Source of the DNA: Eucommia ulmoides
Taxonomy: Eukaryota > Streptophyta > Magnoliopsida > Garryales > Eucommiaceae
Direction of reading: 5' to 3'
Assembly (NCBI GenBank): GCA_016647705.1
Contig: CM028338.1
Coordinates: forward strand, 15,580,740 to 15,644,739
DNA: 64,000 bases
The position numbers and the translations under genes are program-made. Below, in pieces: positions 6,804-63,576 of this stretch; positions within the stretch are counted from its first letter, which is position 1; each line of letters opens with the position of its first letter. The notes under the pieces were generated by a model. It worked only from the letters and a program-made list of their open reading frames with translations. It made no database searches and was not told the DNA's origin.

Positions 6804-6808
6804 AAAAC

Positions 6809-24573: not shown

Positions 24574-26307
24574 TGATAGGTGTGAAAAACCTATATATTT
24601 TCCAATCCGAATTTGTTAGTTTTAGAATACGTTTATAGTTATTTTTATTATGTTTTAATTAGTTTTTATCTTTTTGTATAAATCAGGTGTGTGGGGCAAA
24701 AAGATAGAAAACTGGAGCGAAAACGATGAGATCGAACCAAAGCGGTTCGAAGTTACGGTGGATAAACAGGCTCGGAGGCTAAAAGATGAAACAGGCCCAC
24801 CACCTAGGTGTCCAGACCACCACCTAGGCGGTGAAGAAGCTGAGAAGAGCAAAATGTTACTGACGGACGACTGCTTAGGCGAAGATTCCATCGCCTAGGC
24901 GGAAATCCAGTAGAAGACGTAGATAGGCTACTAACAGCCGCTTGCCTAGGCAAAGTTTTCTTCCCCTAGGCGAAAATCCAACAGAATGTTCTCCCAGTCC
25001 ACCGCCTATTTCACCGGCTAGGCGATCAGACCAAACCGACCTAACTCCGCCTAGGCGAAGAATCCACCGCCTAGGCGGATTTTTCCTACACAGTTTTGAG
25101 ATAGTTTTAGATATTTTTGAGCAATTTTGGCTATAAATACCCCATCTCCTCCCCCTTGGCCGGTGACTCTCTTGTCCCCTTGGCTTTTTTGTGCCCCTTA
25201 AGCTATATCTAAGGGTATATTTAGGGATTTTAGAGGTGGAGCTGACATCCCGAAGTGGAGAAGACGATGAATCGATCGTTGAGCGTTTTTAGCGAAATAT
25301 CTTCAGACGAGGCTAAGTTCTTCGATTGTTTTTCCTTATTTATTTATCTTAGGATCATGTAAGGATGCTTAGCTCATTATTTTATTGTATATGCGGCTAT
25401 AGCCTCAAGTTAAATATGGATTGTAGTAGGGATTAACACTATATTTATAAATACGTTGTTTGGATGATTTCGGTGTTTTGTTTGTGGATGTTCTTTGTAG
25501 TTTGATTGTATTTATCGTATTGTTTGTTTATCGTGCTTAGTTAGATAGATGGAGAATACAGGATTTTGACAAACCTCGGATTCGGATTAAGGTAAACAAA
25601 TGCCACGATTCTATAACCCGGTCGGGGTTTGAATCGTGGACAATTGATGACGTGGGGCAAGACACACGCTACCTAGGGTCGTTAAGACGTTGAGGGGGAC
25701 TTCTTCGTTGGCTCAAAGTTGCATTATATCCCTCGTCTTACACTCAGGAGAGGTGGTGAGGGAGTTATAAAACAGAGATTGTCGATAGGGTAAATACAAC
25801 GCGACGATCCAATAACCTGGGAGGGAGTTGGATTGTGTGCAATCAATGATGTTGGGCGAGACTCACATTACCTAGGGTCGTTATGACATTGAGGGGGACT
25901 TCTTCATTGGCTCGAAGTCATGTATTCCCCCGTCTTACACTCGGGAGAGGTGGCGGTGGAGTTTACATACCGAGGTTGTCAAATAGGTCGAACATCGTAA
26001 ACGTGAGTAAATCGGAATCGAACACGTATTTGTAAGCACGTTAATCCCTAGGCGATTATTCACCCTAAAACATATTAGCATATTAGTGTAGTTAATTTAT
26101 GTTATATTAGTATTAGTTTAATTAATTAAATACATTTTTTTTCCGCCTAGATAAAATCAAGTCACGACAAATGCGGTATTCGATAGTAATGACCCCAATC
26201 CCTGTGGATACTGGATACAATAACCCGATCTTAACGATCACACTATACTAAAATTTAGACCTCGAATACTTGCGAGTGTAAGTAGCGGCGTATTTTACGC
26301 GCTATCA
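24574..26307 (+). repeat. 5' LTR of B
   Basis: TGATAGGTGTG at the start, GCTATCA at the end. U3 holds the CCTAGG palindrome array (24803-25078) and a TATA box (CTATAAATACCCC, about 25131). R/U5 contains an imperfect 199-bp repeat (CCTAGGGTCGTT at 25672 and 25871). Confidence 0.92.
24803..25078 (+). promoter_or_regulatory. Paired CCTAGG palindrome array in U3 of B
   Basis: CCTAGG or a one-base variant starts at 24803/24823, 24874/24894, 24945/24965, then 25017, and 25050/25070. Paired sites are exactly 20 bp apart and the first three pairs repeat every 71 bp. The best copy is CCGCCTAGGCGG at 25067-25078. The array ends about 50 bp before the TATA box. Confidence 0.75.
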
Positions 26308-26313
26308 AGTTTT

Positions 26314-26331
26314 TGGCGCCATTGCCGGGGA
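26314..26331 (+). other. Primer binding site of B
   Basis: TGGCGCCATTGCCGGGGA, the Athila/tRNA-Asp type site, six bases after the LTR end. A decayed second copy with its own LTR-end-like lead-in (GCTACCAAGTTTT) lies at 26440-26457. Confidence 0.85.
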
Positions 26332-26756
26332 TTGTTTTGATGTTATTGTCGGAGAAACGCGGTAACGGCCAGAGACTTAAGTTTTAGATAGGAGAAGTAA
26401 GTGTATCGTATTCTAGTCCTGTCAATGCTACCAAGTTTTTGGCGCTGTTTCTGGGGATTGGTGATTTCGTTAGTATTGATATTGTGTGTAAATGACTTAA
26501 TTTTACTTTAGGCATTTCTTTGTATATAATTTTTTTTTGTAGTTTTGTTTTTGTTTCCGATACGGGGTACTTGGAAATATTAGATCGACGGGTATTGATG
26601 CATCCATTTTGACAGGATTCCAAGCCGTTTATTGTGCTTGGCCAAGCACATAAGCCGGTGAGGCGTTTCGTTGAAAGATCGAGCCATCCAAAGCAAAATC
26701 TCGCCAATCTTGAGGGCATTCTGAATGTCGGGCCGAGGACATTAAACCACGCGCTT

Positions 26757-28366: not shown

Positions 28367-30044
28367 TGATAGGTGTGAAAAACCTATCTATTTCCAATTC
28401 GAATTTGTTAGTTTTTGAATACGTTTATAGTTATTTTTATTATGCTTTAATTAGTTTTTTTTCTTTTGGTATAAATCAGGTGTGTGGGGCAAAAAGATAG
28501 GAAATTAGAGCGAAAACGATGAGATCGAACCAAAGCGGTTCGAAGTTACGGTGGATAAACAGGCTTGGAGGCTGAAAGATAAAACAGGCCCACCGCCTAG
28601 GCAGTGAAAAAGCTAAGAAGAGAAAAATGTTACTGACAGACGACCGCCTAGGTGAAGATTCCACTGCCTAGGCAGAAATCCAGCAGAAGACGCATATGGG
28701 TTACTGACAGCTGCTCGCCTAGGCGAAGTTTTCTTCACCTAGGCAGAAATCCAACAGAATGTTCTCCCAGTCCACCGCCTATTTCACCGCCTAGGCGATT
28801 AGACCGAACCGACCTAACTCCGCTTAGGCAAAGAATCCACCGCCTAGGCGGATTTGCCCTGCACAGTCTTGAGATATTTTGGTTATAAATACCCCCTCTC
28901 CTCCCCTTAGCCGGTGACTCTCTTGCCCCCTTGGATTTTTGAGCCCCTTAGGCTATATCTAAGGGTATATTTATGGATTTTAGGGGTAGAGCTCACATCC
29001 CTAAGTGGAAAAGACGGCGAATCGATCGTTGAGCGTTCTTAGCGATTTATCTTCGGATGAGGCTAAGTTCTTAGATTGTTTTTCCTTATTTCTTTATCTT
29101 AGGATCATGTGAGCATGTTTAGCTCGTTATGTTATTGTATATGTGGCTATGGCCTCGAGTTAAATATGGATTGTAGTAGGGATTAACACTATATTTATAA
29201 ATACGTTGTTTTGATGATTTCGGTGTTTCGTTTATGGATGTTCTTCGTAGTTTGATTGTATTTATCGTATTGTTTGTTTATCATGCTTAGTTAGATAAAT
29301 GGAGAATACGGGATTTTGACAAACCTCATATTCGGATTAAGGTAAACAAACGCCACGATTCTATAACCCGGTCGGGGTTTGAATCGTGGACAATCGATGA
29401 CGTGGGGCAAGACACATGCTACCTAGGGTCGTTAAGACGTTGAGGGGGACTTCTTCGTTGGCTCGAAGTTTCATTATATCCCTCGTCTTACAATTGGGAG
29501 AGGTGGCGAGAGAGTTTTAGAATGGAGATTGTTGATAGGGCAACGCGAGGATCCGATAACCCGGGTGGGAGTTGGATTGTGTGCAATCAATGACGCTGGG
29601 CGAAACTCACATGACCTAAGGTCGTTAAGACATTGAGGGGGACTTCTTCATTGGCTCAAAGTCATGTATTCCCCAATCTTACACTCGGGAGAGTTGGCGG
29701 TGGAGTTTACGTACCGAGGTTGTCAAATAGGTCGAACATCGTAAACGTGAGTAAATCGGAATCGAACACGTATTTGTAAATACGTTAATCCCTAGGCGAT
29801 TCTTCACCCTAAAACATATTGGCATATTAGTGTAGTTAATTTAGGTTATATTAGTATTAGTTTAATTAATTAAATACATTCATTTTTTGCCTAGATAAAA
29901 TTAGGTCACGACAAACGCGGTATTCGATAGTAACGACACCAATCCCTGTGGATATGATAACCTGATCTTAACAATCATACTATACTAAAACTTAGACCTC
30001 GTATACTTACAAGTGTAAGTAGCGGCGTATTTTACACGCTACCA
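28367..30044 (+). repeat. 3' LTR of B
   Basis: Aligns with 24574-26307. About ten differences are visible in the first 150 bases by eye, so the insertion is not recent. The palindrome array and TATA box are conserved at about 28590-28853 and 28880. Confidence 0.92.
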
Positions 30045-30049
30045 ATGAT

Positions 30050-32444: not shown

Positions 32445-33418
32445 CCAGAAAAATCCCCATGCGAGAAAAAATATTTTGAAGATGGCTCATGCCGGATCGG
32501 AGATCATGGATATCTCGAGAAATCTGATTTAGTTGGTGGCGGCGAGTTGTGGGTGGTGGTGCCTCCAACGGGCCTACTTCTTCCTCGTCATGACCCTCCT
32601 CTCCCTCAACTTCCTACTCAGCTGGGTCTAATGCTCATCCCTTCCACAATCGGGTAATCATAGCATGATCGAGTGGACGTATAGGGGGGGCAAGGGCTAT
32701 TCTCTGTGATGGGTACTTCGTCTTGTGTGAATAGCATAGTCAGGAATGAGGGAAAATGAAGACCAACCTTCGTCGTTCAGGCCGCATGAAGTATCAAAGA
32801 GTAGATATGCCAACCGACATTGATGGGCATCTCCTTATAGATTCCATATAACATATAAGCCCGCTCCTTGGAAACATCTGAAAAGTAGGATGTGGGAAGC
32901 AAATTCCCGCATATGAAATAATGCCATATCTTCAGATACCGCACCGGAAAGATAGCCTGACCCTGCCATGTTTCTTTCCATGCTATGTTGCCCATGGTCA
33001 GACCTCAGATCACAGTAGTCATCATTAGCATGGGAGCTTCAGACAAATCCTGCGCGACGTCCGGCCTCGTCAAACCCAGCAGATCATTAAAGTGCTCCGC
33101 ACTGAACACGATTAGCTGGTTTTGGACCTTTGTTTGGTAGCCAGTGGCCTCAGTAATATTAGCATAGAATTCTCGTACCAAGGCCAACTCACTTGGTTGG
33201 GGTGAAGCGCAGAATTTCTCCCATCCTCGGTTCTGTATGACAGTGCTGAAATCTTCTGGGAGGTCTTCCAAAGGTCCGAACCCCCGTTGACGAATGCCAG
33301 CGTGTTTGTTCTCATATTTTTTGAAGTGTTCTACTACTGTCTTGGATACAAATCTAGACAAATCGTAATCTGTGGCTTCTTCTGTGCGTGGCTATTTTGC
33401 TGCACGACGCTTTGCCAT
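32445..33418 (-). pseudogene. Third ORF of C, Athila env-position protein
   Basis: Reads leftward from ATG at 33418 with a basic start (MAKRRAAK). It resembles the 'putative plant transposon protein' domain common in Athila elements: DLSRFVSKTVVEHFKKY, RGWEKFC, LVREFYANITEA, then NLLPTSYFSDVSKERAYMLYGI and INVGWHIY. Stops interrupt it (TAG after AAK, TGA at about 33003 and 32777) but the frame remains the same to about 32640; a frameshift follows. No signal peptide, membrane segment or cleavage site is visible, so calling it an envelope protein is not supported. A likely spliced leader (donor at 33814, acceptor at 33424) and its own palindrome array lie upstream. Confidence 0.65.
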
Positions 33419-33423
33419 TTTTC

Positions 33424-33814
33424 CTATCAATCCAATTCACAACACAAGCCATAACAATAACAATAGAACACAACAAATCAACTCATTTTCAACGAACACA
33501 CATTGGCATTATAACAACCGCATACCAACTAAAACCGCATCACAATAATTTCGCAATATAGCATACCAACCAAAACCAAATCAACAATAAATTCGCAATG
33601 TAGCCCAAAATAAACCATTCCCATAGTGTATATACACATAAACATGATAATCTTCACAAAAAATCAACCCTAAAACCCTAAGAACATGAAAAATGTGAAA
33701 CTAGGGATTGAAGGGTTTTGCGTTCTTTCCAAATCCAAGGATTTTTTGAAATAAATATGCAAATCAAGCAAATATTTCAACAATGAAATGAAAAATAGGA
33801 TCATACACACTTAC
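33424..33814 (-). other. Predicted leader intron before third ORF of C
   Basis: On the minus strand a consensus donor (GTAAGTGTG from 33814) and an acceptor (TTGATAG ending 33424) enclose 391 T-rich bases. The predicted ATG lies five bases after the acceptor. Confidence 0.5.
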
Positions 33815-34064: not shown

Positions 34065-34330
34065 CGAATTCGCTTAGGCAGTGGTTTTTCCGCCAAGGTG
34101 AAGTAGTGCTTTTTTGTTTAAAGACCTTTCTAACGTTTATTCTCCTAGGCGATGGTTTCTCTACCTAGGCGAAGTTACGTCAGTATGAAAAACATTAGGT
34201 TCTGATGCTAATCCGCCCAGGCAGTGGTTTTTTTCGCCGAGGCGAAGTTACATCAGTGTGAAAAACCCAGCCTACTGCCCTTTTTCCACCTAGGCGGTGG
34301 TTTTTCCGCCTAGGCGATGGATTTCATGCT
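34065..34330 (-). promoter_or_regulatory. Internal palindrome array before third ORF of C
   Basis: Eight sites of the CCGCCTAGGCGG type, including a pair starting 34289/34309 (20 bp). This is the same array type as in the LTR of C, but inside the element, upstream of the third ORF. A weak TATA-like TTTTTAAAAG follows about 30 bp downstream. Confidence 0.6.
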
Positions 34331-35317: not shown

Positions 35318-37305
35318 TCAATCACAAGTTTTTACAAACGTGTATGAATCTTTAAACCAAGAAGGCCAGTAAAAACCTGATTGAAGCACTTTCGTTGCTC
35401 TCCAAGTGGCACCAAAATGGCCGCTACAAGGTGATAAATGGCAGTGATATAGAATACTAGTCATCTCCTCTTTCGGAACACATCTCCGAATCACCTGATC
35501 AATACTCTTCTTGAAAAACAATGACTCATCCCACAAGCAATACTTTGAATCGAAAATGAATTTCTTCATTTCGGCTCTTGTCAAATCTGGTGGTAACACA
35601 TTACATGCAAGAAAGTTTACAGTGTCTGCAAACCACGGAAGTGCATTTTCAACTGAGAATAACTGTTCGTCAGGGAACACCTCTGTGATGCTAGACTCCT
35701 CACCAACGTCTTCTTGAATCAACCTTGACAAATGGTCTGCGACAACATTCTCACTCCCCTTTTTATCTCGGATCTTGGCATTGAACTCTTGCAATAAAAT
35801 AATCCACCTTATCATTCTCGGCTTAGCATCTTTCTTTGCAAACAAGTACCAGATAGCTGCGTGATTTGTGTAGACGATCACTTTTGATCCAATGATATAC
35901 GACTGGAACTTATCACAAGCAAAAACAACAGCTAGCATTTTTTTCTCCGTCGTGGTGTAATTCACCTGGGCATCATTAAATGTTTTACTCGCATAATAGA
36001 TGGATCGGAAGATCTTCTGCTTCCATTGTCCTAACACCGCGCCAACGGCATAGTTACTCGTGTCGCACATAATCTCAAATGGCACCTCCCAGTCCAGAGC
36101 GACCATTATAGGAGCCATGATCAACTTCTCCTTTATTGCCTTAAAAGCTTCTATGCAAGCCTCATTGAATTCAAATGGAGTATCCATCTCAAGTAGGTGA
36201 CATAACAGCTTCACCGTCTTCGAGAAGTCCTTGATAAAGCGCCAGTAAAAGCCGGCATGCCTCAAGAAACTTTGAAATCCTTTCACATTAATCGGTGGCG
36301 GAAGCTTCTCAATTGTTTCAATCTTTGCTCGGTCCACCTTAAGCCCCTTGGAAGAGACTCGATGACCTAACACGATCCCCTCTTTGACTATAAAGTGGCA
36401 CTTCTCCCAATTGAGAACTAAATTCTTCTCCTCACATTGGTCAAGAACAAGCGCTAAATTGTATAAACAGTGATCAAAAGACGACCCGAAGACTGAAAAG
36501 TCATCCACAAATATTTCCATTTTCTCTTCCACCATATCCAAAAATATTGCCATTATACACCGTTGAAAAGTTGTCGATGCATTGCAAAGGCTGAACGACA
36601 TACGTCTATAAGCGAACGTCCCATACGGGCATGTGAAAGTAGTCTTTTCTTGGTCCTCCGGTGCAATGGCTATTTGATTGTATCCTGAATAGCAGTCAAG
36701 AAAGCAATAGTAATCATATTTGGCAAATCGATCGAGCATTTGGTCAATGAAAGGAAGAGGAAAATGATCTTTCCTCATCGCCTTATTCAATCTTCTATAA
36801 TCAATGCACACACGCTATCCCGTGATGGTCCGTGTAGGAATAAGATCGTCCTTATCATTCTTTACCACCATCATACCTCATTTCTTGAGCACCACTTGCA
36901 CCAGGCTAACCCACTCGCTATCGGATATAGCATATATAATTCCACATTCAAGAGTTCCAACACCTCCTCTCTTACCACTTCTTTCATCGCCAGATTTAGC
37001 CACCTTTGATGCTTAATGGAGGGTTTGAACGAATCCTCCATCAATATCTTATGCATGCAAATCGAGGGGCTAATTCCTTTGATATTTGAGATAGACCAAG
37101 TGAAAGTGGATCGATGCTGCTTCAAAATTCTTAGCAACTTACACTCCTCTTCTTCCATCAAAGATGATGAAATTATAACCGGATTGGTTAAATTCTCTCC
37201 CAAAACGATATACCGAAGATGCTCCGATAGTTGCTTGAGTATTAATCCACCGTGAGGTGGATTTGATTCCTCAAGAGAGTTCACAACTTCTTCAATCACC
37301 GCCAC
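35318..37305 (-). pseudogene. Reverse transcriptase and RNase H of C
   Basis: This enzyme copies the element RNA into DNA. The N-terminal part (36871-37305) has IKGISPSICMHKIL and is separated from the main frame by a frameshift near 36850. The main open frame (35318-36811, 497 residues) starts CIDYRRLNKA, carries YGTFAYRRM, the active-site motif FVDDFSVFG, and GLKVDRAKIETI, then RNase H with CDTSNYAVGAVLGQ, TTTEKKMLAVVFA and ENVVADHLSRL. The last part (LYHCHLSPCSGHFGA) is the start of the integrase zinc-binding region. No chromodomain. Active-site residues are intact; the break lies at the N-terminus. Sequence type is Athila. Confidence 0.88.
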
Positions 37306-41407: not shown

Positions 41408-42664
41408 GCAACTTCGAATCATCGCCAAAGTCCCCCTCAATGTCTTAACGACTCTAGGCTGCGTGAGTCTTGCCCCAACGTCATTGATTGTACACAATCC
41501 AACTCCCTCCCGGGTTATTGGATCGTTGCGTTGTGTTTACCCTATCGATAATCTCAGTTTTAAAACTTATCCATCACCTCTCTCGAGTGTAAGATGAGGG
41601 AATACGTGATTTTGTGTCAATGCCGAAGTCCCCCTCAATGTCTTAACAACTCTAGATCACGTAAGTCTTTGCCCAACATCATCGATTGTCCACAATGGAA
41701 ACCCCGACCGGATTATAGGATTGTGGCGTTTGTTTATTCTAGTACGAATCCTGGGTTACCTCTTCTGAGAGTCAAACCCCGTATTCTTGATATGTAAATC
41801 TAAGCACGATAAACAAACAATAAGGCACACACAATGAACATACGAAGAACAACCAAGAACGAAACATAAACTTAACCAAAACTATATTTTCATAAATAAA
41901 ACATTAATCCCCATTTACAATCTATGTTTAGCTCATGGCCCTAACCGTATAAACAAAAAAAACCGAGCTAAACATGCTCAATAATCTAAAAAAATGAAGA
42001 AAATAAAGAGAGAAGTGGAAAAACTTAGCCGATATCTGAAGATTTAGTGCTAAAACCGTAATCTGATTGCTCCTCCTTTATATTCCTCCTCAGGATTGAA
42101 TGAGCACTCTCCAAAACTCTCTCTCTATTCTATCTAACCCTAGGAAGGCCCTAATGGTCGGAGAGAGCTCAGAAAATGAGAGAGAAGGTGGTATTTAGAG
42201 ACAAAATATCTAAAATAAATATCTCCCACTGTGCAGAGGCCACCGCTGCGGCCGTGGGATTCACCGCCGCAGTCGTGGAGTATGTTGGTTAGTGTTTCAC
42301 CGAGGAGATGGAGTAGGCGGTGGAATAAGAAAACAATCTGCTAGATTTTCGCCTAGGCGGTGAGATTTCCACCTAGTCAGAAACAATTTATTTTTCTCAT
42401 CATCTTCACCTCGCGGTGGTGGTCTGGACGCCACGACAGTGGGCTTGTTTATAGAATCTTGCCTATTTGCTAATTTTTCCACCGCTCTCTGACCGTTCTT
42501 AATACGATTTGATCGTTTATGCTCCTATTTTATACCTTTTCACCCCACGCACCTGTTTTAATACAAAAAGAATAAAAACACATTAAAATGTATTAAAACG
42601 TAATAAACGTACTCGAAAACTAACAAATTCGGTATGGAAATATATAAGTAATTTACACCTATCA
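41408..42664 (-). repeat. 3' LTR of A, inner fragment
   Basis: Continues from 23875 after removal of C and ends CACCTATCA at 42664 next to the purine tract (GAGTTTGGGGGTATT on the minus strand). It contains one CTAG-core site (CGCCTAGGCGGTG, about 42353) not kept in the other LTR. Confidence 0.9.
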
Positions 42665-44584: not shown

Positions 44585-46196
44585 TGGTGGCCGCTATTTA
44601 AGCGCTCCACTTTCACCGCAAACATACGGATCACGTTTTAGTATAGTGGACCTTTCGGTCGGGTATCGTATCCACAAGGATTGGTTGAGATTACTATTGA
44701 ATACCGTGTTTGTCATAACCTAATTTTATCTAGGTGATAAAAATAGAATTTAATTAAATACTAATTCTAAACTAAAATATGAATTTAATTAACTATACTA
44801 TAAATACTATATTAAGATTGTTTAGAGGAGTAGATTGTCTATGGATTAACTTTATTTACTTAAATGTGTTTGGTTTTGTTTTAGTTAATGTTAACAGTGT
44901 TCGGCGTATCCGATAATCTCAGTTTGTAAACTCTTCCGCCACCTCTTCCAAGTGTAAGACGGGATAATACGCAACTTCAAATCAACGCCGAAGTCTCTCT
45001 CACTGTCCTAACGACTCTAGGCCACATGAGTCTCGCCCCAACGTTATTGATTGCACACAATCCAACTCTCTCCCGGGTTATTGGATAGTCGCATTGTGTT
45101 TACCCTATCGACAATCTCAGTTCTAAAACTCCCCCATCATCTATCCCGAGTGTAAGACGAGGGAATACGTGATTTTATTTCAATACCAAAGTCCCCCTCA
45201 ACGTTTTAACGAGTCTAGGTCACGTGAGTCTTGACCCAACGTCATCTATTGTCCACAATAGAAACCCCGACCGGATTATAGGATTATGGCGTATGTTTAT
45301 TCTAGTCTGAATCCAGGGTTACCTCTTCCGAGAGTCAAACCCCGTATTCTTGATATGTAAATCTAAGCACGATAAACAAACAATAAGGCACACACAATCA
45401 ACATACGAATAACAACCAAGATCGAAACATAAACTTAACCAAACCTACATTTTCATAAATAAAATGTTAATCCCCATTTACAATCTATGTTTAGCTCATG
45501 CCCCTAACCGTATAAACAATAAAAACCAAGCTAAACATGCTTAACAATCTACAAAAATAAAGAAAATAAAGAGAAAAGCGAAAAAACTTAGCCGATATCC
45601 GAAAATTTAGCGCTAAAACCGTAATCTGATTGCTCCTCCTTTATCTTCTTCCTCGGGATTGAATGAGCATTTTCTAAAACTCCCTCTCTATTCTAACTAA
45701 CCCTAGGAAGGCCCTAATGGCCGGAGAGAGCTCAGAAAATGAGAGGGGAGGGGGTATTTATAGACAAAATATCTAAAATAAATATCTCCCACTGTGCAGA
45801 GGCCACCACCGCGGCCGTGGAGTATGTTGGTTAGTGTTTCGCCGAGGCGATGGAGTAAGCGGTGGGATTTTTACCTAGTTAATGGAATTTTTGCATAGGT
45901 CGAGGGCAGTCAGTAGTAATTTGTTTTTCTTAGCATCTTCACCGCCGCGGCGGTGGTCTGGAGCCGTGGCGTAGGGCTTGTTTGCAGAATCTTGCCTCCT
46001 TGTTCATTTTTCCACCGTTCTCCGACCATTCTCGATACGATTTGATCGTTTATGCTCGGATTTCATACCTTTTTACCCCACGCACCTGTTTTAATACAAA
46101 ATAATAAAAACACATTAAAATGTATTAAAACATAATAAACCTACTCTAAAACTAACAAATTCGGTATGGAAATATATAGGTAATTTACACCTATCA
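44585..46196 (-). repeat. 5' LTR of A
   Basis: 1,612 bp from TGGTGGCC to CACCTATCA. On the minus strand a TATA box (CTATAAATACCCCC) lies at about 45762, and upstream of it is a perfect 16-bp palindrome CACCGCCGCGGCGGTG (45940-45955) among degenerate copies. Confidence 0.92.
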
Positions 46197-47176
46197 CTCT
46201 CTCCACAGAGTTTATCACTGCGGAAGATGTATGTTGAGCCCAGGCTGAAGAAGAAGAAGAAGTCGTCAAAAGGAAAAGGAAAGTTGAAGAGACAAACTAC
46301 AACAAACCCAATTGAGACAACTCCTGGACAATGAATAGAAGAAATGGGGCAGAGAGGGACAGATCTGATAAGAAACTGGGGAGGAATAGATCTCCCATGT
46401 GCTTCACTAACTACACGCCTTTCAATGCTCCATTGGGGACAGTTCTGATGCTGATCAAGGATAAGAAATTGATTAAGTAGCCTCAGACAATAAAGAGTCG
46501 AATAAAAAATATCAACTCAGATAAGTGGTGTAAAGAACGAGATCGATCAATTGATTCGAAGAGGTTACCTTAAGAGGTTCATGACTGAAGGAGATCAAGA
46601 TAAACAATACCCTTGTCAGGATAGAAAAAGCTTTGAGGTCCAAGGGAACATCCACATGATCCATGGTGGATTCACCTTGAGAAGACTGACCAAATTCAAG
46701 CATAAGGCGCATGCTCGACGGGGCAAATGTCTAGCTGAGGATTATGTGTTTCAAGTATCTAAGAAGCCCCTCACAAAGAGAGAGAGAGAGAGAGAGGCCA
46801 TAACCTTTATTGAGGAAGACCTACGCGAGGTTCACACACCCCATGACGATGCTTTGGTGGTCACCTTGCAAATCGCCAACTACAATGTGGGGGCGAGAAT
46901 TGGTCGACAACGGCAGCTCAGTGGAGATAATCTACTTAACTGTATTTAATAGGATGACAATCAGCCACGACTAATAAAGCCAATAATGACCCCGCTAGTC
47001 GGCTTTGGAGGAGAAATAGTGAATCTGCTCGGTTGGATCACGCTTCAAATTACAACGGGAACAGAGCCAAAGCACTCGATAGTCGATGCGCGGTTCATGG
47101 TAATGGACTGTTCGTTAGCGTACAATACTATCACCAGAAGGTCGTGTCTAAATGCTTTAAAGGCCATCACTTTAAC
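46197..47176 (+). pseudogene. Element T gag end and aspartic protease
   Basis: Resumes directly after A. The first 300 bases are badly decayed. From 46521 the gag end (EIDQLIRRGYLKRFM frame) is visible, then the protease region: AITFIEEDLREVHTPHDDALVVTLQIANY, followed by a damaged stretch where the active-site DNGSS-like motif overlaps a frameshift near 46910. The C-terminal half (46986-47176) reads PLVGFGGEIVNLLGWITL, AYNTITRRSCLNALKAIT, as in Tat proteases. A solo LTR is inserted at 47177. A GA microsatellite at 46782-46796 may reflect slippage within the coding sequence. Confidence 0.75.
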
Positions 47177-47971
47177 TGATGAGAACCAAAAGCAACATCA
47201 AAGGACACATTGCATGTCCTGGTTGGGCCCATTACTAAGGCAAGATCCAAGAAGATCAAAGAAGCGCTTAATGGGCTAATTCAAGAGATTTCGGCTGAAT
47301 CGAAAACAATAAAGCCCAAATTAGGCCCAAATGACGATCAAGGCCTAATCCATCTCATCAAAGCAAGTGAATGTGTTTAGACATGAACTCAAATAGACCA
47401 AGGCTTGAGGACCACGAAATTCTCAGCATATTTATTTTATTTATTTGTATTTTAATTTTAATTTAGGTTAATTATTTGATAATTTGTAAGGCATGATTTC
47501 CAAATTATCCTTTTCCTTTTTAGATTAGGAGTAGGGTTTCCTTGTTTCTCTAGGGTTTCTTTTTTTTTGTATTGTAGCCGCACCATTCACGAGCACTGTT
47601 CACCGACACTATTTACTGCACTATTCATTACCTATTTAAGAAAATTGTATCCCATGAGGAAGAACACATTACTTTGATTAATAAAAATTGTGAGAGTTTT
47701 CTCTTTAGTTCTTCAAAGAACTTTTCTTGAACTTATCAAGAGTTTCTTGTGCCGTTCCAACTTATATCTTTGATTCGTGATTAATTATAATCATTGGGTC
47801 AAGATCATTATACCATTGGTTCGCGTTTTGTTCATAAACATTGGGTCAAGGTAATCTATCTTTCAATTTCTGTATTTTTATCTCGTTCAAAAATCTGATT
47901 TAGTTTCGATCTTCGCGAAGAAACCCTAAGTTGGTTTCGGGTCTCACTAATCCTTGGTGAGGTTCGCATCA
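47177..47971 (+). mobile_element. Solo LTR of family F in element T
   Basis: 795 bp, TGATGAGAACC to GGTTCGCATCA, flanked by TTAAC at 47172-47176 and 47972-47976. The polyprotein tail encoded in its first 200 bases is frameshifted. Confidence 0.92.
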
Positions 47972-47981
47972 TTAACATACC

Positions 47982-49338
47982 TAGTAGTGTGTGAATATGT
48001 CTCTACTTTCACCACAAGTGTACAAGTCAAGTTTTAGTATAATGGAAAGAGTAAGGGTTGTCCTATCCACAGGGATTAGATTAGATTGTCGTTGAGTACC
48101 GCGATTATCATAACCTAACTTTATCTAGGCAATAAAAATGTAGTTTTTGTATAAATATACTAAATTCATTATCTAATTAAACTAATTAATCTAACATACT
48201 AATATAGTGGTATGATGTTTACGGGAAATTATTGCCTAGGGATTAATTTCGTTCACTTAAACGTGTTCATTTCAATCTACTTTACATTAACGGCGTTTAT
48301 CCTATCCAACAATTTCGGTATCGAAATCTCATTCACTACTTCTCCAGAGTGTAAAGTGAATGAATATGTAACTTCACATCAATGCTGAAGTCCTTCTTGA
48401 GCGTCTATACGACACTTGGTCATATGAGTCTTGCCCCAACGTCACAGATTGCATACTTTCTAACTCTCTCCCGGGTTATTAGATCGTCACGTTGTGTTTA
48501 AACCCTAGTCCGAATCCGGGGTTACCTCTCCCGAGTGTCAAACCTCGTATTCTCAGTATATCTAAATAAGCATATAAACATGGAATAATGGTAAACACAA
48601 TCGGATAAACATGAATAACCATTAACAAAACATCGATTTTATTTAAATAACATTTTAATGAAGTACATCAGTCCCTAGACAATATATGTTTAGCTACACA
48701 TGGCCGTAGCCCTATATATAACTAGAAATGAGCTAAACTTATATAAACATTCAACCAATCTAAGAGAGAAAGAGACAAACAAGGAGACTAGCCATTATCC
48801 GAAGATCCGATGCTAAAACCGCTTCGAGAACGCTTCTTCCTTCTTCGGCTTTGTGATCTTCTATTGCTCGAATAGCCTTGGAGCTCTCAAGACTCCTGAA
48901 AACGTCCACTCTCGTTTGGGGAGAATAGGGACGATATTTATAGGATTCAAAATATCTCAAAATATCCTAAAATATCTTAAAACGTTAGGCTCTAACCGCT
49001 GCAGCAGTGGTTTCACCACTCCAGCGGTGGAGCTCTTTGCATTTTGACCGCTGCAACAGTGGCCTGATCGCTGCAGCAGTAGAGTTTCAGCAAACTCTGT
49101 ATTTTCACCGCTGCAACGGTGGATGCAAGTTTTGGATTTGGCCGTTCTTCTCTTTTTCTCCACCGTTCTTCCACCGCTTTGATTGTTTAAGGACAGTTAT
49201 AGTCCCTTTTTTTTTTATCCCAAATACCTAATTAATACAAAATAAATAAAAATGTATTAAAACATATAAAAATACCATAATAATACTCGAAAACTACTAA
49301 AACTGGCTTGGGAATATATAAAAAAATTACACCTATCA
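47982..49338 (-). mobile_element. Element E: Athila-type solo LTR
   Basis: 1,357 bp flanked by ATACC at 47977-47981 and 49339-49343. The inner end is CACCTATCA, like A; the other end is TAGTAG, one change from TGGTAG. A minus-strand TATA box lies at about 48944 and a TGCA-core palindrome group at 48996-49120. Its left duplication directly adjoins the right duplication of the preceding solo LTR. Confidence 0.85.
48996..49120 (-). promoter_or_regulatory. TGCA-core palindrome array in E
   Basis: CCGCTGCAGCAGTGG-type sites with cores near 49000, 49020, 49052, 49072 and 49112; neighbours within pairs are 20 bp apart. Position upstream of the TATA box is as in the other families. Confidence 0.6.
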
Positions 49339-49343
49339 ATACC

Positions 49344-50663
49344 ACCTAAAGTTGAAGTTCTCGACCAAGAATGCAATCGGTGAGGTTTAAGGAAGCCAAA
49401 TGGTAGCTCGAGAATGCTTCGTGACAGAAATAGAAATCCCCAAATAGTAATAAAAGAATGAGAAAGTCAATAAGGACTTCCTGCCCGGGGACATAGTCAA
49501 GCGTCCCGGGAAAGAGGACATCATGGACCCATGGGTTGAACAACTACAATAACCTCGACCTCAGCCTAATGAAGAATTGGAAGATGTCTAAGTACACCCG
49601 ACCGATCTGAACCGAACCGAACCGAACTATCCAGATCGGGATGGCCCTTTCGTGAGACAAAAAAAACAACTAATCAAGCTTCTCAAAGCCAACCACGATG
49701 TGTTTTCTTGGTCGCATACGGATCTACCTGGGATAAACCCAAGTATCTCTATGCACCGGTTCTATACTAACCCAGTGTACCAACCAATTCGACAAAAGTG
49801 ATGAAAGTTTGGGCCAGAGTGACAGGCTATGATCGAGGAAAAAACCAAGAAGCTACTTTATGCAAATATCATCGAAGAAATCAACTTCCCCCTCTGGCTA
49901 TCGAACGTGGTCCTGGTAAAGAAAAAGACAGGGAAGTGGCGTATGTGTGTGAACTTCACTGACCTCAATAATGTATATCTGAAGGATTGTTTTCTACTTC
50001 CAAAGATTGATGTAATCGTGGACGCTATGGCAGGTTACGAGTGGCTTAGTTTTCTTGATGCCTTCTCAGGGTACAATCAAATCAGCATATACCCGCCTGA
50101 CAAAGAAAAAATAGCCTTCATCACCGACAAGGGCTTATACTGCTATAAAGTAATGTCGTTCGGACTAAAAAATGGTGGAGCTACATACCAAAGGTTAGTG
50201 AAAAAAATGTTCGCTGATTTACTCGGGAAGACCATGAAAGTCTATATCGACAACATGTTTGTAAAAAGTAAGGTGGCTAGTGATCATCTAGCCGATCTAA
50301 AAAAGTGATTCGATGTGCTTAGGATGCATAGGATGCAGCTGAACCCAAGCAAATGCGTGTTAGGAGTTAGCACCAGGAAATTTCTCGGTTATGTAGTAAC
50401 AAGAAGGGGAATCAAATCTAGCCTAAAGAAAGTTAAGGTGATCATGAACATAACATCCGAAAGGATGATCAAGGAGGTACAAAGCCTAACAGGGCGAGTA
50501 GTAGCTTTGAATCATTTTATTTCTCGGGCGTCAAACAAGCCTGTATACCATTCTTCAAAACTCTACAGGGCAACAAAAGTTTGAAGTGGACCAATGAGTG
50601 TGAGAAAGCCTTCCAAGAACTCAAGAATTACATCTTAAAATCACCAATACTTACCACCCCCAA
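49344..50663 (+). pseudogene. Element T reverse transcriptase
   Basis: The protease tail and linker come first (GSQMVARECFV, about 49385), then HDVFSWSHTDLPGINPSIS (49690) and the polymerase domain in an open frame from 49829: LSNVVLVKKKTGKWRMCVNF, WLSFLDAFSGYNQ, YCYKVMSFGLKNGGATYQRL, then LNPSKCVLGVSTRKFLGYVV and QSLTGRVVALNHFISRASNK. The catalytic motif reads YIDN where YVDD is required, and stops occur near 50306 and 50582. RNase H would follow; element F is inserted at 50664 after CCCAA. The type is clearly Tat. Confidence 0.85.
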
Positions 50664-51499
50664 TGATGTGAACCTCACCAAGGATTAGTGAGACCCAAAA
50701 TGAACTTAGGGTTTTTTCGCAAAGGTTCGAACTAAAATTTAGATTTGTAACAAAATAAGAAATACAAAAATTGAAAGATAGATTGTCTTGACCCAACGTT
50801 TATAAATGAAACTTGAACCAAAGGTATAGAGTAACCACCTTGACCCAAAGATTATAAGTGAATCACGAACCGAAGGTATAGAGTTTGAACGCCACAAGAA
50901 ATTCTTGACAAGTTCGGAAAAAGTTCTCTGAAGAACTTAAGAGGAAACTCTCACAATTATATTAATCAAAAGTAATATGTTTTCCCCATGGTATAATGGT
51001 CTCTTAAATAGATAAAAGAAAAAAAAAACCTAGCTAGTGAATAGTGCTAGTGAACAGTGGGCGCCCACAGTATAATATTAAAGAAAACCCTAGAGGAATA
51101 AGGAATCTTAGAGAAATAAGGAAACCCTATTCTTAATCTAAAAAAGAAAAGACTAATTCCTAATCTAAAAAGGAAAAGATCACTTGGTAATCAAGCCTTA
51201 CAAATTAGCCTAAAAGAATTAAAAGACTTAAAATAATAAAATAAATAAAATAAAATTCATGGGTCTCATCCTAGGCCCGTTCAGGTTCACTCCTTAAGCC
51301 TATTCGCTTGTCTTGATGAAATGAACTAGGCCTTGATTTTCCGATGGGCCTAATTTGGCCTTGACCATTGTAGACTCGGTCCAAATCTCTTGAATAAGCC
51401 CATTAAGTGCTTCTTTGAATCTTTTAACCCTTACCCCTGTTATTGGGCCAAGTTGGAATATGCAATGGATCTCTTGGTGTAACTGATATATTCTCATCA
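50664..51499 (-). repeat. 3' LTR of F
   Basis: 836 bp. The outer end TGATGTGAACC differs by one base from the consensus. The inner end adjoins AAAAGGGAGGGAA on the minus strand, the polypurine tract (51500-51512). Confidence 0.93.
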
Positions 51500-52518
51500 T
51501 TCCCTCCCTTTTGAAAATGATTTGTCCTCAAATCTTCACCTACACCAAACGGAGATAAGTCAGTCACATTAAAAGTAGCACTTACATTAAACCCACCTGA
51601 AAGGTCCAACTTGTAGGCATTGTCATTGATCTGTTCTATCACTTGAAAAGGGTCATCCCCCTTTGGAAGTAGCTTAGAATGACTTTGTTGGGGAAACCGC
51701 TCCTTCCTCATATGCAACCAAACCCAATCACCCAGTTCAAATACAATCTTCTTGTGCCATTTATTAGCTTGGTTGGCATATTGCTCAATTCTCCTCTCAA
51801 TATTTTGTTGGGCCTTCCATGGATCTGTTTAACAAAATCAGCCTTCCTCTTCCTATCTAAGTTGACACGCTCATGCATAGGTAAAGAAGTTAAATCCAAA
51901 GGAGTCAATGGATTAAAACCGTACTCAATTTCAAACGGTGAAAACTTAGTTGTAGAATGCACACTCCTATTATAAGAAAACTCTATATGCGGCAAACAAT
52001 CTTCCTATGTTTTCAAATTCTTTTGTATTATAGCATACAATAATGTAGACAAAGTCCTATTAACTACTTCGGTTTGACCATCGGTTTGTGGGTGACAAGT
52101 AGTAGAAAATAAAAGTTTAGTTCCGAGCTTACCCCTACAAAGTCTTCCAAAAGTAGCTTAAGAACTTAGCATATCTATCCACAACAATAGTCTTAGGCAT
52201 GCCGTGCAACCTAACTATTTCCTTGAAGAACAAATCAGCAACATGTGAAGCATCATCGGTTTTATGACATGGAATAAAATGAGCCATCTTAGAAAACCTA
52301 TCTACAACCACATATATAGAATCTCGACCTCCTTTTGACCTAGGAAAACCTAATACAAAATCCACAGAAATATCAATCCAAGGTTCACTAGGTATAGGCA
52401 AAGAAGTATACAAACCATCAGGCTTAACCTTAGACTTAGCTTGCCTACAAACAATACACTTCTCACAAATTCTCTCCACTTCACATTTCATATGAGGCCA
52501 GAAGAAGTGTTCATACAA
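51424..52518 (-). pseudogene. Integrase and polyprotein tail of F
   Basis: Integrase inserts the element. The N-terminal zinc region ([13 protein letters not shown]) and the core ([51 protein letters not shown]) are in 52135-52518; a frameshift follows. Then MPHIEFSYNRSVHSTTKFSPFE carries the core end with its Glu region nearby disrupted. The C-terminal domain (51424-51717) reads FPQQSHSKLLPKGDDPFQV, YKLDLSGGFNVSATFNV and DLSPFGVGEDLRTNHF, and passes through the purine tract (coding QKGGN) into the LTR (DENISVTPRDPLHIP). The tail ITRARAKRFKEALNGLIQ is conserved in all four LTR copies but frameshifted in this one. Confidence 0.82.
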
Positions 52519-56643: not shown

Positions 56644-56656
56644 GCTCTGATTACCA
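56644..56656 (-). other. Primer binding site of F
   Basis: The minus strand reads TGGTAATCAGAGC, the Met-tRNA-type site with one extra A, two bases inside the LTR. Confidence 0.75.
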
Positions 56657-56658
56657 AA

Positions 56659-57502
56659 TGATGCGAACCTTACCAAGGATTATTTAGACTCGAAACCAAC
56701 TTAAGGTTTTTTCGCAAAGTATCGAACTAAAATTCAGATTTGTAATGTAATAAGAAATATAGAAATTGATAGATAGATTACCTCGACCCAACATTTATGA
56801 ATGAAAAGCGAACAAAAGGTATAGAGCATCCACCTTGACCCAATGATTATAAGTGAATCACAAATCGACGGTATAGAGTTTGAACGCCATAAGAAAGTTT
56901 TGATAAGTTCGAGAAAAATTCTCTAAAGAACTTAAGAGGAAACTCTCACAATTATATTAATCAAAAGTAATGTGTTTTTCCCATGGGATACAAGTCTCTT
57001 AAATAGATAAAAGAAAAAAACCCTATCTAGTGAATAGTGCTCGTGAACAGTGGCCGTGAACAGTAAGCGGGCACAATATAATATAAAATAAAATCCTAGA
57101 GGAACAAGGAATCTTAAAAAAATAAGGAAACTCTACTCCTAATCTAAAAAGGAAAGACTAATTCCTATTCTAAAAAGGAAAAGTTTACTTGACAATGAAG
57201 CCTTACAAATCAGCCTAAAAGAATTAAAAGACTTAAAATAATAAAATAAATAAAATAAAATTCGTGAGTCTCATTCTAGGCCCGTTCAGGTTCATGCTTT
57301 AAGCCCATTCGCTTGTCTTAATGAGGTGGACTAGTCCTTGAATGTCTGATGGGCCTAATTTGGGCTTGACCATTGTAGACTCGAGTAAATCTATTGAATA
57401 AGCCCATTAAATGCTTCTTTGAATCTTTTAGCCCTTGCCCTTGTTATTGGGCCAATTGGAATATGTAACGAATCTCTTGGTGCAACTGATATATTCTCAT
57501 CA
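56659..57502 (-). repeat. 5' LTR of F
   Basis: 844 bp, TGATGCGAACC to ATTCTCATCA. Here the tail frame ITRARAKRFKEAFNGLIQ is intact, though in a 5' LTR it is not part of pol. Confidence 0.93.
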
Positions 57503-57552: not shown

Positions 57553-58949
57553 CGATAGGTGGAATTTATCTGTATATTCCCAAGTCAATTTTGATAGTTT
57601 TCAGGTATTCTTATTATGTTTTAATATGTTTTAATTCGTTTTTATTTATTTTGGTATAAATGAGGTATTTAGGACAAAAATGATAAAAACGGTTGAAAAT
57701 CTAGCAAATCGGTGGGACGTTGGTGGAGAAATATTGATAAAGGCCAAGTTCACAAACTACAAACTCACTGCTGCAACGATCAATCAAACAGAAATATTCT
57801 GCTTGACCACCGCTGCAGCAGTGAACTCCACCGCTGCAGCGATGGCCTCCATCGCTGCAACGGTCAGTTGGTAGAAACCTACTGACTTCTACCGTTGCTG
57901 CGGTCCTTCCCACTGTTGCAGTGGTTCGACACCAGGTGGCTTAGATAGTTTTGGATACTTTCTTAGATATTTTTTATCCCTTAACATCCCCCTATCTCCC
58001 TCATACCATGCACGATTTTTGGGACTTCCTTGAGAGCTCCAAGGTATACCAACAAGGAGAAATCATCCATTTGAAGAGGAGGAAACAAGATCAGAGCGGA
58101 AATCACGAACGCGAAACCGTCAATTCTTTAGATAACAGCTATTATCCTTTGTTTCTCTCTTTAATTCTTAAACCCTTGTTGGTATTTGATCATGTTTAAC
58201 TTGTTTATAGTTGAATATTTGGCTATGGCTATGTATATCTAAACATATATTGTCTAGGGTTTGATTGTGTTCATGAAAATGTTGTTTGTATAAATCTATT
58301 TTTCGTTAACGGTTGTTCATGTATATTTGATTGTGTTTACCATTTTATTACTTCTATAGTTTTCTTGTTATGATATTATCGTTGGTTTGAGAAATCAGGG
58401 CTTGACACATAGGAGAGGTGACCCCGGATTCGGACTAGGGTTTAAACACAATGTGACGAACTAATGACTCGAAGAGTATTAGAAAGTGTGCAATCTGTAA
58501 GATTGGGGCGAAACTTATGTGATCAGTGTCATTTAGATGCTAGATGGGGATATCAGCGTTGACGTGAAGTCGCATATTCCTTCACTTTACACTCGAAAGA
58601 GGTAGTGAGTGAGTTTTCAATACCTAGGTTGTGGGATAATTTGAATACCGTTATTGTAAATTAGATTGGATCAAACACGTATAAGTGAACAAAGTCAATC
58701 CCTAGATAATATATTCCCATTAATGTCATATTAGTATTGTAATTTAATTATTTAATATTTTAGTTTAGTTTATTATAAAAACAAAAACCTAAATTTAATC
58801 GCCTAAATAAAGTTCGGTTATGACAATCTCGGTTTTTAGGGACAATTTAATCCAATCCCTGTGGATACAACAACTCTTCTCATTCACTATTCTATAAAAC
58901 TTGACCTGTACACTTGCGGTAAAAGTAGCGACGTAATATTCTGCTACCA
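57553..58949 (+). repeat. 5' LTR of D
   Basis: 1,397 bp. The start is CGATAGG (TG changed to CG; the other LTR has TGATAGG), the end GCTACCA. TGCA-core palindromes are at 57814, 57835 and 57856, exactly 21 bp apart. Confidence 0.9.
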
Positions 58950-58954
58950 AGTTT

Positions 58955-58973
58955 TTGACGTCGTTGCCGGGGA
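58955..58973 (+). other. Primer binding site of D
   Basis: TTGACGTCGTTGCCGGGGA, two changes from the Athila site, just after the LTR. Confidence 0.75.
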
Positions 58974-61565: not shown

Positions 61566-62871
61566 TGATAGGTGGAATCTATCTATATATTTCTAAGACA
61601 ATTTTGATAGTTTTTGAGTATTCTTATAATGTTTTAATATGTTTTTATTTGTTTTTATTTGTTTTGGTCTAAATCAGGTGTTTGAGACTAAAATGGATTA
61701 ATACAGTTGAAAATCGAGCAAATCGATGGGACGTTGGTGGAGAAAAATTAAAAATTGTCAAGTTTAGAAACTGCAGGCTCACTGCTTTAGCAGTGAAAAT
61801 GACCGTTGTAGCGATCAATCAAACAGAAACATTCTGCTTGACCACCGCTATAGCGGTAAAGTTCACCGATGCAGCGATGGCCTCCACCGCTGCAGCGGTG
61901 TTTTCCACCGCTACAGTGGTCAACTAATAGAAACCTACTGACTTCCCACTACTGCAGCAGTGCTTCCCACCGCTGCAGCGGTCCAACACCAGGTGGCTTA
62001 GATATTTTGGGATATTTTCTTAGATATTTTGGATCCCTTAATATTCCCCTTTCTCCCTCATACCATGCATGGTTTTTGGAACTTCCTTGAGAGCTCCAAG
62101 GCATACCAACAAGGAGAAAATATCCATTTGAAGAAGAGGAAACAAGATCGGAGTGAAAATCACAGATGTGGAACCTTCAATTCTTCATATAACGCCAATT
62201 CTCCTTTGTTTCTCTCTTTAATTCCCAAACCCTTATTGGTATTTGATCATGTTTAGCTTGTTTATAGTTAAATATTTGGTTATGGCCATGTATATCTAAA
62301 CATATATTATCTAGGGTTTGATTAAGTTCATGAAAACGTTGTTTGTATAAATCTATGTTTCGTTATTCTTTGGAGAGGTAACCCCGGATTCGGACTAGGG
62401 TTTAAACACAACGTGACGATCAAATGACTCGGGAGAGTATAAGAAAGTGTCCAATCCATGAGGTTGGGGCGAGACTCATATGATCAGTGTTGTTAAGACG
62501 CTAGATGGGGACATCGGCGTTGACGCGCAGTCACATATTCATTCACTTTACACTCGAGAGAGGTAATGAGTGAGTTTTCGATACCTAGATTGTCGGATAG
62601 TTTGAATATCGTTAATGTAAACTAGATTGGATCAAACACATATAAGTGAACGAAGTCAATACCTAGATAATATATTCCCATTAATGTCATATTAGTATTG
62701 TAATTTAATTAGTTAGTATTTTAGTTTAGTTTATTATAAAAACAAAAACCTAAATTTAATTGCCTAAATAAAGTTCGGTTATGACAATCGCGGTACTTAG
62801 CGACAATTTAATCTAATTCCTATGGATACAATAACCCTTCTCATTCACTATTCTATAAAACTTGACCTACA
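61566..62871 (+). repeat. 3' LTR of D, truncated
   Basis: Begins TGATAGGTGG after a purine tract (TAAGTTTGAGGATATT). It follows the 5' LTR to CTTGACCTACAC and then diverges. It contains the best TGCA-core array of the window. Confidence 0.88.
61849..61982 (+). promoter_or_regulatory. TGCA-core palindrome array in 3' LTR of D
   Basis: Four-base cores start at 61849 (TATA), 61870, 61891 and 61912, each exactly 21 bp apart, then at 61953 and 61974, again 21 bp. CACCGCTGCAGCGGTG at 61885-61900 is a perfect 16-bp palindrome. Confidence 0.75.
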
Positions 62872-63576
62872 CATGCCAAGGGAATGGAAAGAGTTGAGTG
62901 TCCTGTCACCAAATCTGTTACAACTTGATATTTGTTCAATTATTTGTGCGTCTTCCATGCCAAGGGAATATTCTCTGCTAATTTGGTAGTGACTTACCCT
63001 CTGTCACTAAGTACCGCGCTTTGATTTTATTGGCATACCTAATTCTTAAATGGGTCCCGGGCTTCTTCAAATACGTCACCCTTCCCTGAGGGCGTGGGCC
63101 CATGCCTAGGCCCAAAATATATTAGGCACAACCCAAGCATATGTTTTAGGTTTCATGGGCTTTCTTATTGGATGGACCATGACTAAATCTATCACCATCA
63201 GTAGCCCCCCAGACTCTTAGGCCAGATGGTCCTGTCTTGGGAGTCTTCTAGCGTAATTTTTCTCATGGTGACATACTGCCCCTCTTTTCCTTGGTGTACA
63301 TTTCGGGGACACTCCCAGTTTTCAAAAGTGAATTTTTGGGTTTCTTTCCCTTCTGAAAAAAAATTGAATGGTGAAACCAAAGATGAGGATTTTGGGCCCT
63401 CTTGCACCACTTGGACTTACTGCGCTAGGCGAGTAAGTCGACGTGGGGACAAGCAAAGTACATTTGCAAAGTGGTTACAAAAGTTCGTAACTTCTCTCTC
63501 TAAGATCTCACTCCAAAATTTCTCTTCAAGAATTTCAAGAATCTAATTCGCCTCTCAATTCTATTCTCATTCAACC
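62872..63576. other. Unclassified sequence between D and LINE-like ORF
   Basis: CATGCCAAGGGAAT occurs twice (62872 and 62957). A purine tract on the minus strand (CTGGGGGGCTAC, about 63205) next to TGATGGTGATAG could mark an LTR of another minus-strand element, but no partner is present. The last 100 bases before 63577 look like a CT-rich leader. Confidence 0.4.

Follow-up and report, generated by a model that had tools for sequence, protein, structure and literature searches.

Why would retrotransposons keep the arms of a palindrome and exchange the four bases at its center? In a 64,000-nucleotide window of the Eucommia ulmoides genome (the whole stretch of DNA that we analyzed), long terminal repeats (LTRs) carry the frame CACCGC-N4-GCGGTG with different cores. 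The original prediction was that different LTR families keep this frame and swap one self-complementary core for another. We consider it probable, with moderate confidence, that the palindromes form a helically phased, promoter-proximal operator array for a two-fold symmetric (dimeric) activator in one Athila-like Ty3/gypsy group.

The frame itself is real and enriched, as predicted: allowing up to two mismatches, CACCGC-N4-GCGGTG matches the window 22 times, versus a mean of 0.28 and a maximum of 2 in shuffled sequence. Just two exact copies of CACCGCNNNNGCGGTG are present, at 45940 (core CGCG) and 61885 (core TGCA). As a control, the arm letters were placed in each of their 29 other orders, which gave at most four sites each (mean 0.69), versus 21 non-overlapping sites for the true motif. 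With at least 10 of 12 arm bases matching, all 21 sites are inside LTRs. At 9 of 12 or more, 37 of 43 are; those outside are three sites in an internal array of element C (34211, 34284, and 34304) and sites at 12485, 36035, and 50655, which look like chance. At 8 of 12 or more, 57 of 88 sites are inside LTRs and 31 are outside.

Self-comparison, together with primer binding sites (PBS) and LTR starts, revealed several LTR elements in the window, part of them nested. Element A (minus strand) has its 5' LTR at 46196-44579 and its 3' LTR at 42664-41403; this 3' LTR is interrupted by C and resumes at 23875-23488. Element C (minus strand; 5' LTR at 41402-39982, 3' LTR at about 30855-30031, resuming at 24573-23876) is itself interrupted by element B (plus strand), whose LTRs are at about 24574-26313 and 28367-30045. 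Downstream of this nest are element D (plus strand; LTRs at 57553-58955 and 61566-62876, the second one truncated) and a solitary LTR, E (minus strand; 49338-47996). LTRs make up 20% of the window. Below, A5 and A3 denote the 5' and 3' LTRs of A, and likewise for B, C, and D.

The internal regions of elements A to D are 67 to 74% alike. In a tree built from the LTR segment 3' of the TATA box, A groups with B and D with E (support of 98 to 100), and C5 has a long branch. Given this homology and the tree, the sequences place the "families" as branches within a single Athila-like Ty3/gypsy group, and we ruled out independent families that converged on one motif. Thus, the predicted cores are branch specific, but the branches are not independent families. 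Directly 3' of the 5' LTR, all four elements contain TGGCGCCGTTGCCGGGGA with one or two mismatches (at 26314, 39964 on the minus strand, 44561 on the minus strand, and 58956), which is presumably a PBS complementary to tRNA-Asp. The domains RVT_1, RT_RNaseH, and Integrase_H2C2 are in Ty3/gypsy order in a piece of C (35321-36814), and they are known from C alone; C also has an additional ORF downstream of pol, an Athila-like trait that was recognized via PF20167. The PBS, the reverse transcriptase, RNase H, and integrase zinc-binding domains, and the extra post-pol ORF are held in common with Athila-type Ty3/gypsy elements; the label "Athila-like" was assigned from the domain order, the PBS, and the extra ORF. 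Reverse transcriptase peptides did not match any related element among viral contigs, and a DNA pattern scan of viral contigs gave 23 loci.

Some other features of the window are worth recording. Element B has two PBS-like sequences 126 bp apart (26314-26457), each 3' of a stretch that resembles an LTR end. A 1.9-kb direct repeat (1-1890 and 4919-6804, 92.5% identical) surrounds 3 kb, does not contain a palindrome array, and is perhaps another LTR element. A second dispersed repeat family (16397-17306, 47174-47973, 50659-51501, and 56654-57502; 73 to 86% alike) has copies adjoining E and D. The window also contains a host gene with DUF1635; asterids head its matches, and Eucommia is not among the names in the 120 listed of 1,208.

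The arrays differ in their cores and in their number of units. The array of D3 (61780..61983, plus strand) has eight sites, at 61780, 61801, 61843, 61864, 61885, 61906, 61947, and 61968 (steps of 21, 42, 21, 21, 21, 41, and 21 bp), and most of their cores are TGCA; D5 (57766..57923, plus strand) has six sites and at two places has one 21-bp unit fewer. Six TGCA copies at exact 21-bp steps had been predicted for D. The core is indeed TGCA at 61870, 61891, 61953, and 61974, but it is TATA at 61849 and TACA, which is not self-complementary, at 61912. The steps between the six are actually 21, 21, 21, 41, and 21 bp, and the copies are not exact: the arms are perfect at 61885-61900 alone, and the rest of the six have one to three arm mismatches. 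Similarly, E (48994..49121, minus strand) was expected to have TGCA at 20-bp steps. Four of its five cores are TGCA and one is TCCA on the plus strand (TGGA in the sense of the element), and the steps, in window order, are 20, 32, 20, and 40 bp; the centers are 171, 131, 111, 79, and 59 bp upstream of TATA.

Element A mixes core types. A5 (45804..45955, minus strand) has two CGCG sites, the predicted exact one at 45940-45955 and one whose frame is ambiguous (45804 or 45807), as well as a CTCG site. A3 (42241..42424, minus strand) has CGCA, TGCG, one CTAG site (42347), and decayed sites, and is one 21-bp unit longer. The expectation that B and C use CTAG was borne out. B5 (24818..25080, plus strand) has CTAG and one TTAG, with its nearest three centers 112, 79, and 59 bp upstream of TATA; B3 (28591..28853, plus strand) also has CTAG and one TTAG, and lacks one 20-bp unit. 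C5 (41017..41209, minus strand) has CTAG and one CGAG, and C3 (30362..30660, minus strand), whose array is 85 bp longer, has CTAG.

To count cores and dyad symmetry, we used 57 sites with at least 8 of 12 arm bases: 50 from the U3 zones of the nine LTRs, 4 from the internal array of C, and 3 from the Eucommia tags MSL3 and MSL5, which were added as extra members and counted under branch A. The 50 LTR sites remained from 57 after removing those outside the U3 zone (B5 579, 1172, 1592, and 1620; B3 1543; E 152) and one with less than 14 bp between sites (A5 345, core CTCG). Doubtful sites were retained (A5 333; A5 375, which overlaps frame 378; A3 241; A3 343; and B3 535, which is downstream of TATA). 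By branch, the core is CTAG in 10 of 13 sites in B and 9 of 10 in C, TGCA in 12 of 19 in D/E, and mixed in A (11 sites: CGCG with CTAG remnants).

Across these sites, 38 of 57 cores are self-complementary, versus 11.1 when the core columns were shuffled (the maximum of 5,000 shuffles was 22). Core positions 7 and 10 complement each other at 45 of 57 sites (vs. 25.8 expected), and positions 8 and 9 at 47 of 57 (vs. 24.4 expected); both have p = 0.0002, which is the floor of 5,000 shuffles. The expected predominance of palindromic cores holds in part: non-palindromic cores are a minority yet not rare, at 7 of 24 sites (10 of 12 arm bases or more) or 19 of 57 (8 of 12 or more), with the Eucommia tags and the internal array included. 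Among the 19, 14 are one substitution from the palindrome of their branch (10 of these by transition) and 5 are two away. Because shuffling within branches already gives 34.2 self-complementary cores versus 38 observed (p = 0.037), the signal lies in a separate palindrome for each branch, and we counted this result against an operator array. The effective sample is three main cores on one tree, and because the sites are related by descent, the p values and the phase statistics overstate independence. The swaps may reflect a new binding partner, escape from silencing, or a chance founder, and three ancestral cores are too few to separate adaptation from the last of these.

The arms behave differently from the core. 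Dyad pairs 1, 3, 4, 5, and 6 of the arms did not covary above the shuffle across the 57 sites, and pair 2 did so weakly (p = 0.012). This bears on the idea that the palindromes act in RNA, as hairpins of the U3 transcript (a 6-bp stem and a self-complementary 4-base loop) that would mediate kissing-loop dimerization of the genomic RNA or would be a source of small RNAs. Such interchangeable loops recall retroviral dimerization loops, in which the self-complementary core varies between subtypes while the flanks stay, and the RNA of the D3 array does fold well (z = -8.8; 0 of 200 shuffles were as good). But any palindrome array folds well, so the z score is not specific. Also, retroviral loops act in RNA, whereas here it is the would-be loop that covaries and five of the six stem pairs do not; the stems in B and C often have outer mismatches; and a fixed phase relative to TATA, which is kept here, needs duplex DNA. 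We rejected selection on RNA stems as the sole cause, as the stem positions mostly did not covary (one of the six pairs did so weakly), and we consider any such RNA function very unlikely. The outer arms of B and C, which are often asymmetric (CTCCGC..GCGAAG or CACCGC..GCGGAT), also count against the operator reading.

Do the cores differ at equivalent places? After the spacer TCCAGACC, A5 has CACCGC-CGCG-GCGGTG, MSL3 has CGTG as the core, and B5 has CTAG. The last site before TATA has CGCG in A5 and MSL5, CGCA in A3, and CTAG in B and C. The site that precedes the spacer AACC(A/G)AC has CTCG in A, TGAG in MSL5, and CTAG in B and C. So, the predicted exchange of self-complementary cores between constant arms does occur at homologous places with conserved spacers, but much of the variety (TGCG, CGCA, CGTG, TACA, TATA, and TTAG) can be explained as C-to-T decay. 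In the block adjoining TATA (six sequences, with columns labeled on C3), pairwise identity is 0.40 for the core (64/160), 0.71 for the inner arms (227/320), 0.66 for the outer arms (105/160), and 0.62 for the spacers (562/900). Between branches, the core is the least conserved part and the inner arms are the most conserved; that the arms are just modestly above the spacers (0.71 vs. 0.62) was another point counted against an operator. CTAG and CGCG differ at the two central bases, and CGCG and TGCA at the two outer bases; a route CTAG-CGCG-TGCA, in either direction, is possible.

These comparisons also bear on founder amplification: in each branch, slippage or unequal recombination might have multiplied a unit with a chance core, leaving uniform cores and phase as by-products, without any change of binding partner. 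Arrays do turn over in units. The two LTRs of an element are identical at insertion, and here they differ by 21 bp (A), 20 bp (B), 21 + 21 bp (D), or 85 bp (C), and D has 21-bp tandem arrays. However, where the core of A differs from that of B and C, the spacers are conserved, so the array was not rebuilt at those places, and for this reason we rejected founder amplification as the sole cause. Furthermore, the unit does not divide the spacings of 32-33 and 51-52 bp, which nevertheless fit the helical period, and each self-complementary core would have to arise anew by chance, with a probability of 1 in 16. Overall, we view this explanation as rather unlikely.

The arrays lie upstream of TATA, as predicted. 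The box TATAAATA is at 45755..45762 in A5 (minus strand), 25132..25139 in B5 (plus), 28884..28891 in B3 (plus), 40937..40944 in C5 (minus), 30302..30309 in C3 (minus), and 48935..48942 in E (minus), and A3 has the TATA box TCTAAATA at 42192..42199 (minus). The LTRs of D have no good TATAAATA; they have CTTAA(T/C)AT in its place (57980 and 62037), to which the distances in D were counted, and the palindromes are still at the usual distances. The last center is 59 bp upstream of TATA in B5 and E, 38 bp in B3, and 60 bp in C3; in C5 it is 80 bp away, and the site that follows it has decayed. More broadly, centers are found 59-61 bp upstream of TATA in B5, C3, D5, D3, and E; 79-82 bp upstream in B5, C5, C3, D5, D3, and E; and 111-112 bp upstream in B5, C5, C3, and E (122-123 bp in D). 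With a repeated motif in U3, upstream of TATA, the LTRs share the arrangement of a promoter-proximal U3 enhancer array of the Tnt1-like kind.

Neighboring sites were measured in a single LTR from each branch and in the internal array of C; they are 20-21, 32-33, 40-43, 51-52, 62, 82-83, or 123 bp apart. The eight spacing classes (20 to 123 bp) fit a single period between 10 and 11 bp with a mean cosine of 0.87 (20 of 20,000 random sets were as good), and the spacings follow a period of 10.3-10.5 bp. These classes left out A5, B3, C5, and D5 as second LTR copies, which were checked separately: their 16 spacings have a mean cosine of 0.81 at 10.4 bp and 0.72 at 10.5 bp, and the poorest fits at 10.5 bp are for spacings of 103 and 30 in A5 (0.37 and 0.62). 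For phase relative to TATA at 10.5 bp, R was 0.65 over 32 sites and reached 0.85 when restricted to the 16 within 125 bp; 10.5 bp was the best of seven periods tried, and R for the 32 sites was 0.20 at 10 bp and 0.32 at 11 bp. (The R values used centers at 71 and 50 bp for A3; a recount gave 70 and 49 bp.) The phase can be inherited in part through unit duplication.

Three observations on position were counted against the operator reading. First, the sites of A are about one turn nearer to TATA, at 49-52 and 70-73 bp, depending on the frame. Second, MSL5 has sites at 48 and 80 bp, and its spacer identifies the 80-bp site as the counterpart of the -112 site in B and C. Third, B3 has a 21-bp deletion between the array and TATA (25109-25139 vs. 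28872-28891), or about two helical turns, which leaves its last two sites 58 and 38 bp from TATA. B3 also has one weak site, with a TTAG core, downstream of TATA.

Between the arrays and TATA is another recurring sequence. D3 has two copies of AGATATTTT (62000..62030, plus strand, at 62000 and 62022), the reverse complement of AAAATATCT, which we take to be the evening element. In the other LTRs, AGATATTTT is at 25109, 28872, 30334, 40969, 42203, 45766, 48949, 48969, and 57965. In all, AAAATATCT/AGATATTTT is exact in all nine LTRs, 12-37 bp upstream of TATA (or of the TATA-like stretch in D), and 11 of the 13 copies in the window are there; just 1 of 400 permuted 9-mers was equally frequent. 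Because this sequence sits upstream of TATA in each LTR, the LTR promoters may respond to clock or cold factors.

We also considered whether mutation could account for the cores by itself. An ancestral CGCG might decay by loss of methylated C (CGCG to TGCG, CGCA, or CGTG and then to TGCA; CTGCAG to CTACAG to CTATAG), with deamination passing through palindromes. The intermediates TGCG, CGCA, and CGTG are present in A and MSL3, and TACA, TATA, and TGTA are present in D, where the TATA core is TGCA in the partner LTR. Among differences between 5' and 3' LTRs, CG or CHG transitions account for 30 of 50 in the motifs; elsewhere in the U3 zone the figure is 67 of 220, and for the LTR beyond that zone it is 74 of 251. 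These figures are raw, and the CpG density of the motifs is higher. However, transitions alone lead from neither CGCG nor TGCA to CTAG, which needs transversions. Also, among the related sites of D and E, the arms retain 25 of 38 CpGs while the cores retain 0 of 38; in-place decay could give this only if it spared the arms. For these reasons, CpG decay explains the noise and not the three main cores; we rejected it as the sole cause because core and arm CpGs in D/E are not alike, and mutation alone seems unlikely to us.

If the host bound or methylated these CG- and CHG-rich palindromes, then the core changes would be variants that escape silencing. The many CG and CHG transitions in the motifs fit this idea, but the CpG-bearing arms are retained across branches at positions in phase with TATA, and an element is not expected to keep and multiply the sites of its own silencer. 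A silencing target seems highly improbable.

After insertion, the motifs do not seem to be protected. Differences per column, in the motif and in the rest of the U3 zone, are 0.145 and 0.133 in A, 0.116 and 0.083 in B, 0.087 and 0.115 in C, and 0.202 and 0.141 in D. Thus, the motif changes no more slowly than its surroundings in A, B, and D, with possible constraint in C, and any upkeep of the arms would therefore act while the elements are active.

Location, branch-specific cores, spacing, unit indels, and the decay pattern are all observed, and an operator array would account for them as follows. A homodimeric protein, or a symmetric pair, would read the CCGC/GCGG arms, with the four central bases at the dyad. 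Multiple copies, aligned on the same helical face and in phase with TATA, would activate transcription from U3. A shift of the core in a branch would be symmetric, to CTAG, CGCG, or TGCA, because both subunits must see the same half-site. Turnover of units would then spread one core through the array; cores would be shared within a branch because arrays grow and shrink by units of 20-21 bp or multiples. Inserted copies would degenerate, mostly through C-to-T changes at CG and CHG sites. Dimer binding, activation, and selection that keeps the arms and the phase are the parts that we infer.

Element C also has palindromes outside its LTRs. Its internal array (34068..34319, minus strand), which lies 3' of pol and 5' of the third ORF, comprises three pairs of sites 20-21 bp apart with cores CTAG, CTAG, CTCG, CTGG, CTTG, and CTAA, and a fourth, weaker pair is visible. 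The third ORF (32621..33418, minus strand, with an ATG at 33418) is broken by stop codons. Of the four pieces searched, two have a match to PF20167 (putative plant transposon protein), of which one passes the Pfam cutoff and the other falls short of it; this family is presumably tied to Athila. A possible 5' splice site at 33814 and a possible 3' splice site at 33424, just 5' of the ATG, would define a leader intron. The region of the internal array has no TATAAATA and no evening element, and its sole TATA[AT]A is TATATA at 33634, inside the possible intron. Judging from the sequence, a separate promoter for the third ORF at the internal array is plausible.

It is also conceivable, if distinctly unlikely, that a dimeric regulator encoded by the element itself, possibly the PF20167 product of the third ORF, uses the palindromes as its recognition code. 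Branches and dependent non-autonomous elements would then diverge by symmetric core swaps, with each regulator serving its own LTRs. The leader of the PF20167 ORF itself holds the similar paired palindromes (34068-34319). If true, this would be a retrotransposon counterpart of operator/repressor immunity groups.

Are similar promoters known? The U3 of HTLV-1 has imperfect 21-bp repeats upstream of TATA, each of which is read by a dimeric factor, and the virus encodes a co-activator. The arrays described here are alike in repeat length and place, but HTLV-1 is an animal virus and no homology is implied. Among plant factors, LBD/ASL (LOB-domain) and AP2/ERF proteins recognize half-sites that contain CCG, and LOB domains dimerize on palindromic DNA, which makes both candidate binders. 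Tobacco Tnt1 is a Copia element whose U3 contains BII boxes in tandem repeats. Boxes in the Tnt1 LTR are known to bind defense-induced factors, but palindromic cores, whole-turn spacing, and core swaps are absent from the excerpted account of Tnt1 (PMC3316501). According to a review, U3 motifs vary between subfamilies (PMC10794571). Binding boxes in U3 and U3 divergence between subfamilies are already known. Titles and abstracts of the open-license PMC articles found by the searches did not describe a phased array with a swapped symmetric core, including for Athila-type elements, and text matches to the motif letters CGCCTAGGCG included no article on retrotransposons, as judged by title. Where arms, spacing, and TATA phase are kept while sister branches exchange the core, the ways in which an LTR promoter may change its DNA-recognition specificity can be read from the sequence. 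The 5,254 intact gypsy-like elements reported for E. ulmoides (PMC7603500) would offer large numbers for testing the idea of core swaps.

Longer motif strings gave one relevant match in the literature (PMC7246395), a source of E. ulmoides ddRAD reads. Of its 10 reads, 4 (both reads of MSL3 and both of MSL5) match the elements at 69 to 88% identity, and the other 6 (MSL1, MSL2, and MSL4) do not match them. Thus, two of the five putative male-specific tags in Table 2 of that source are parts of a repetitive LTR group. PCR of MSL3 and MSL5 was not sex specific, according to the same article, and this may be because the tags belong to that group.
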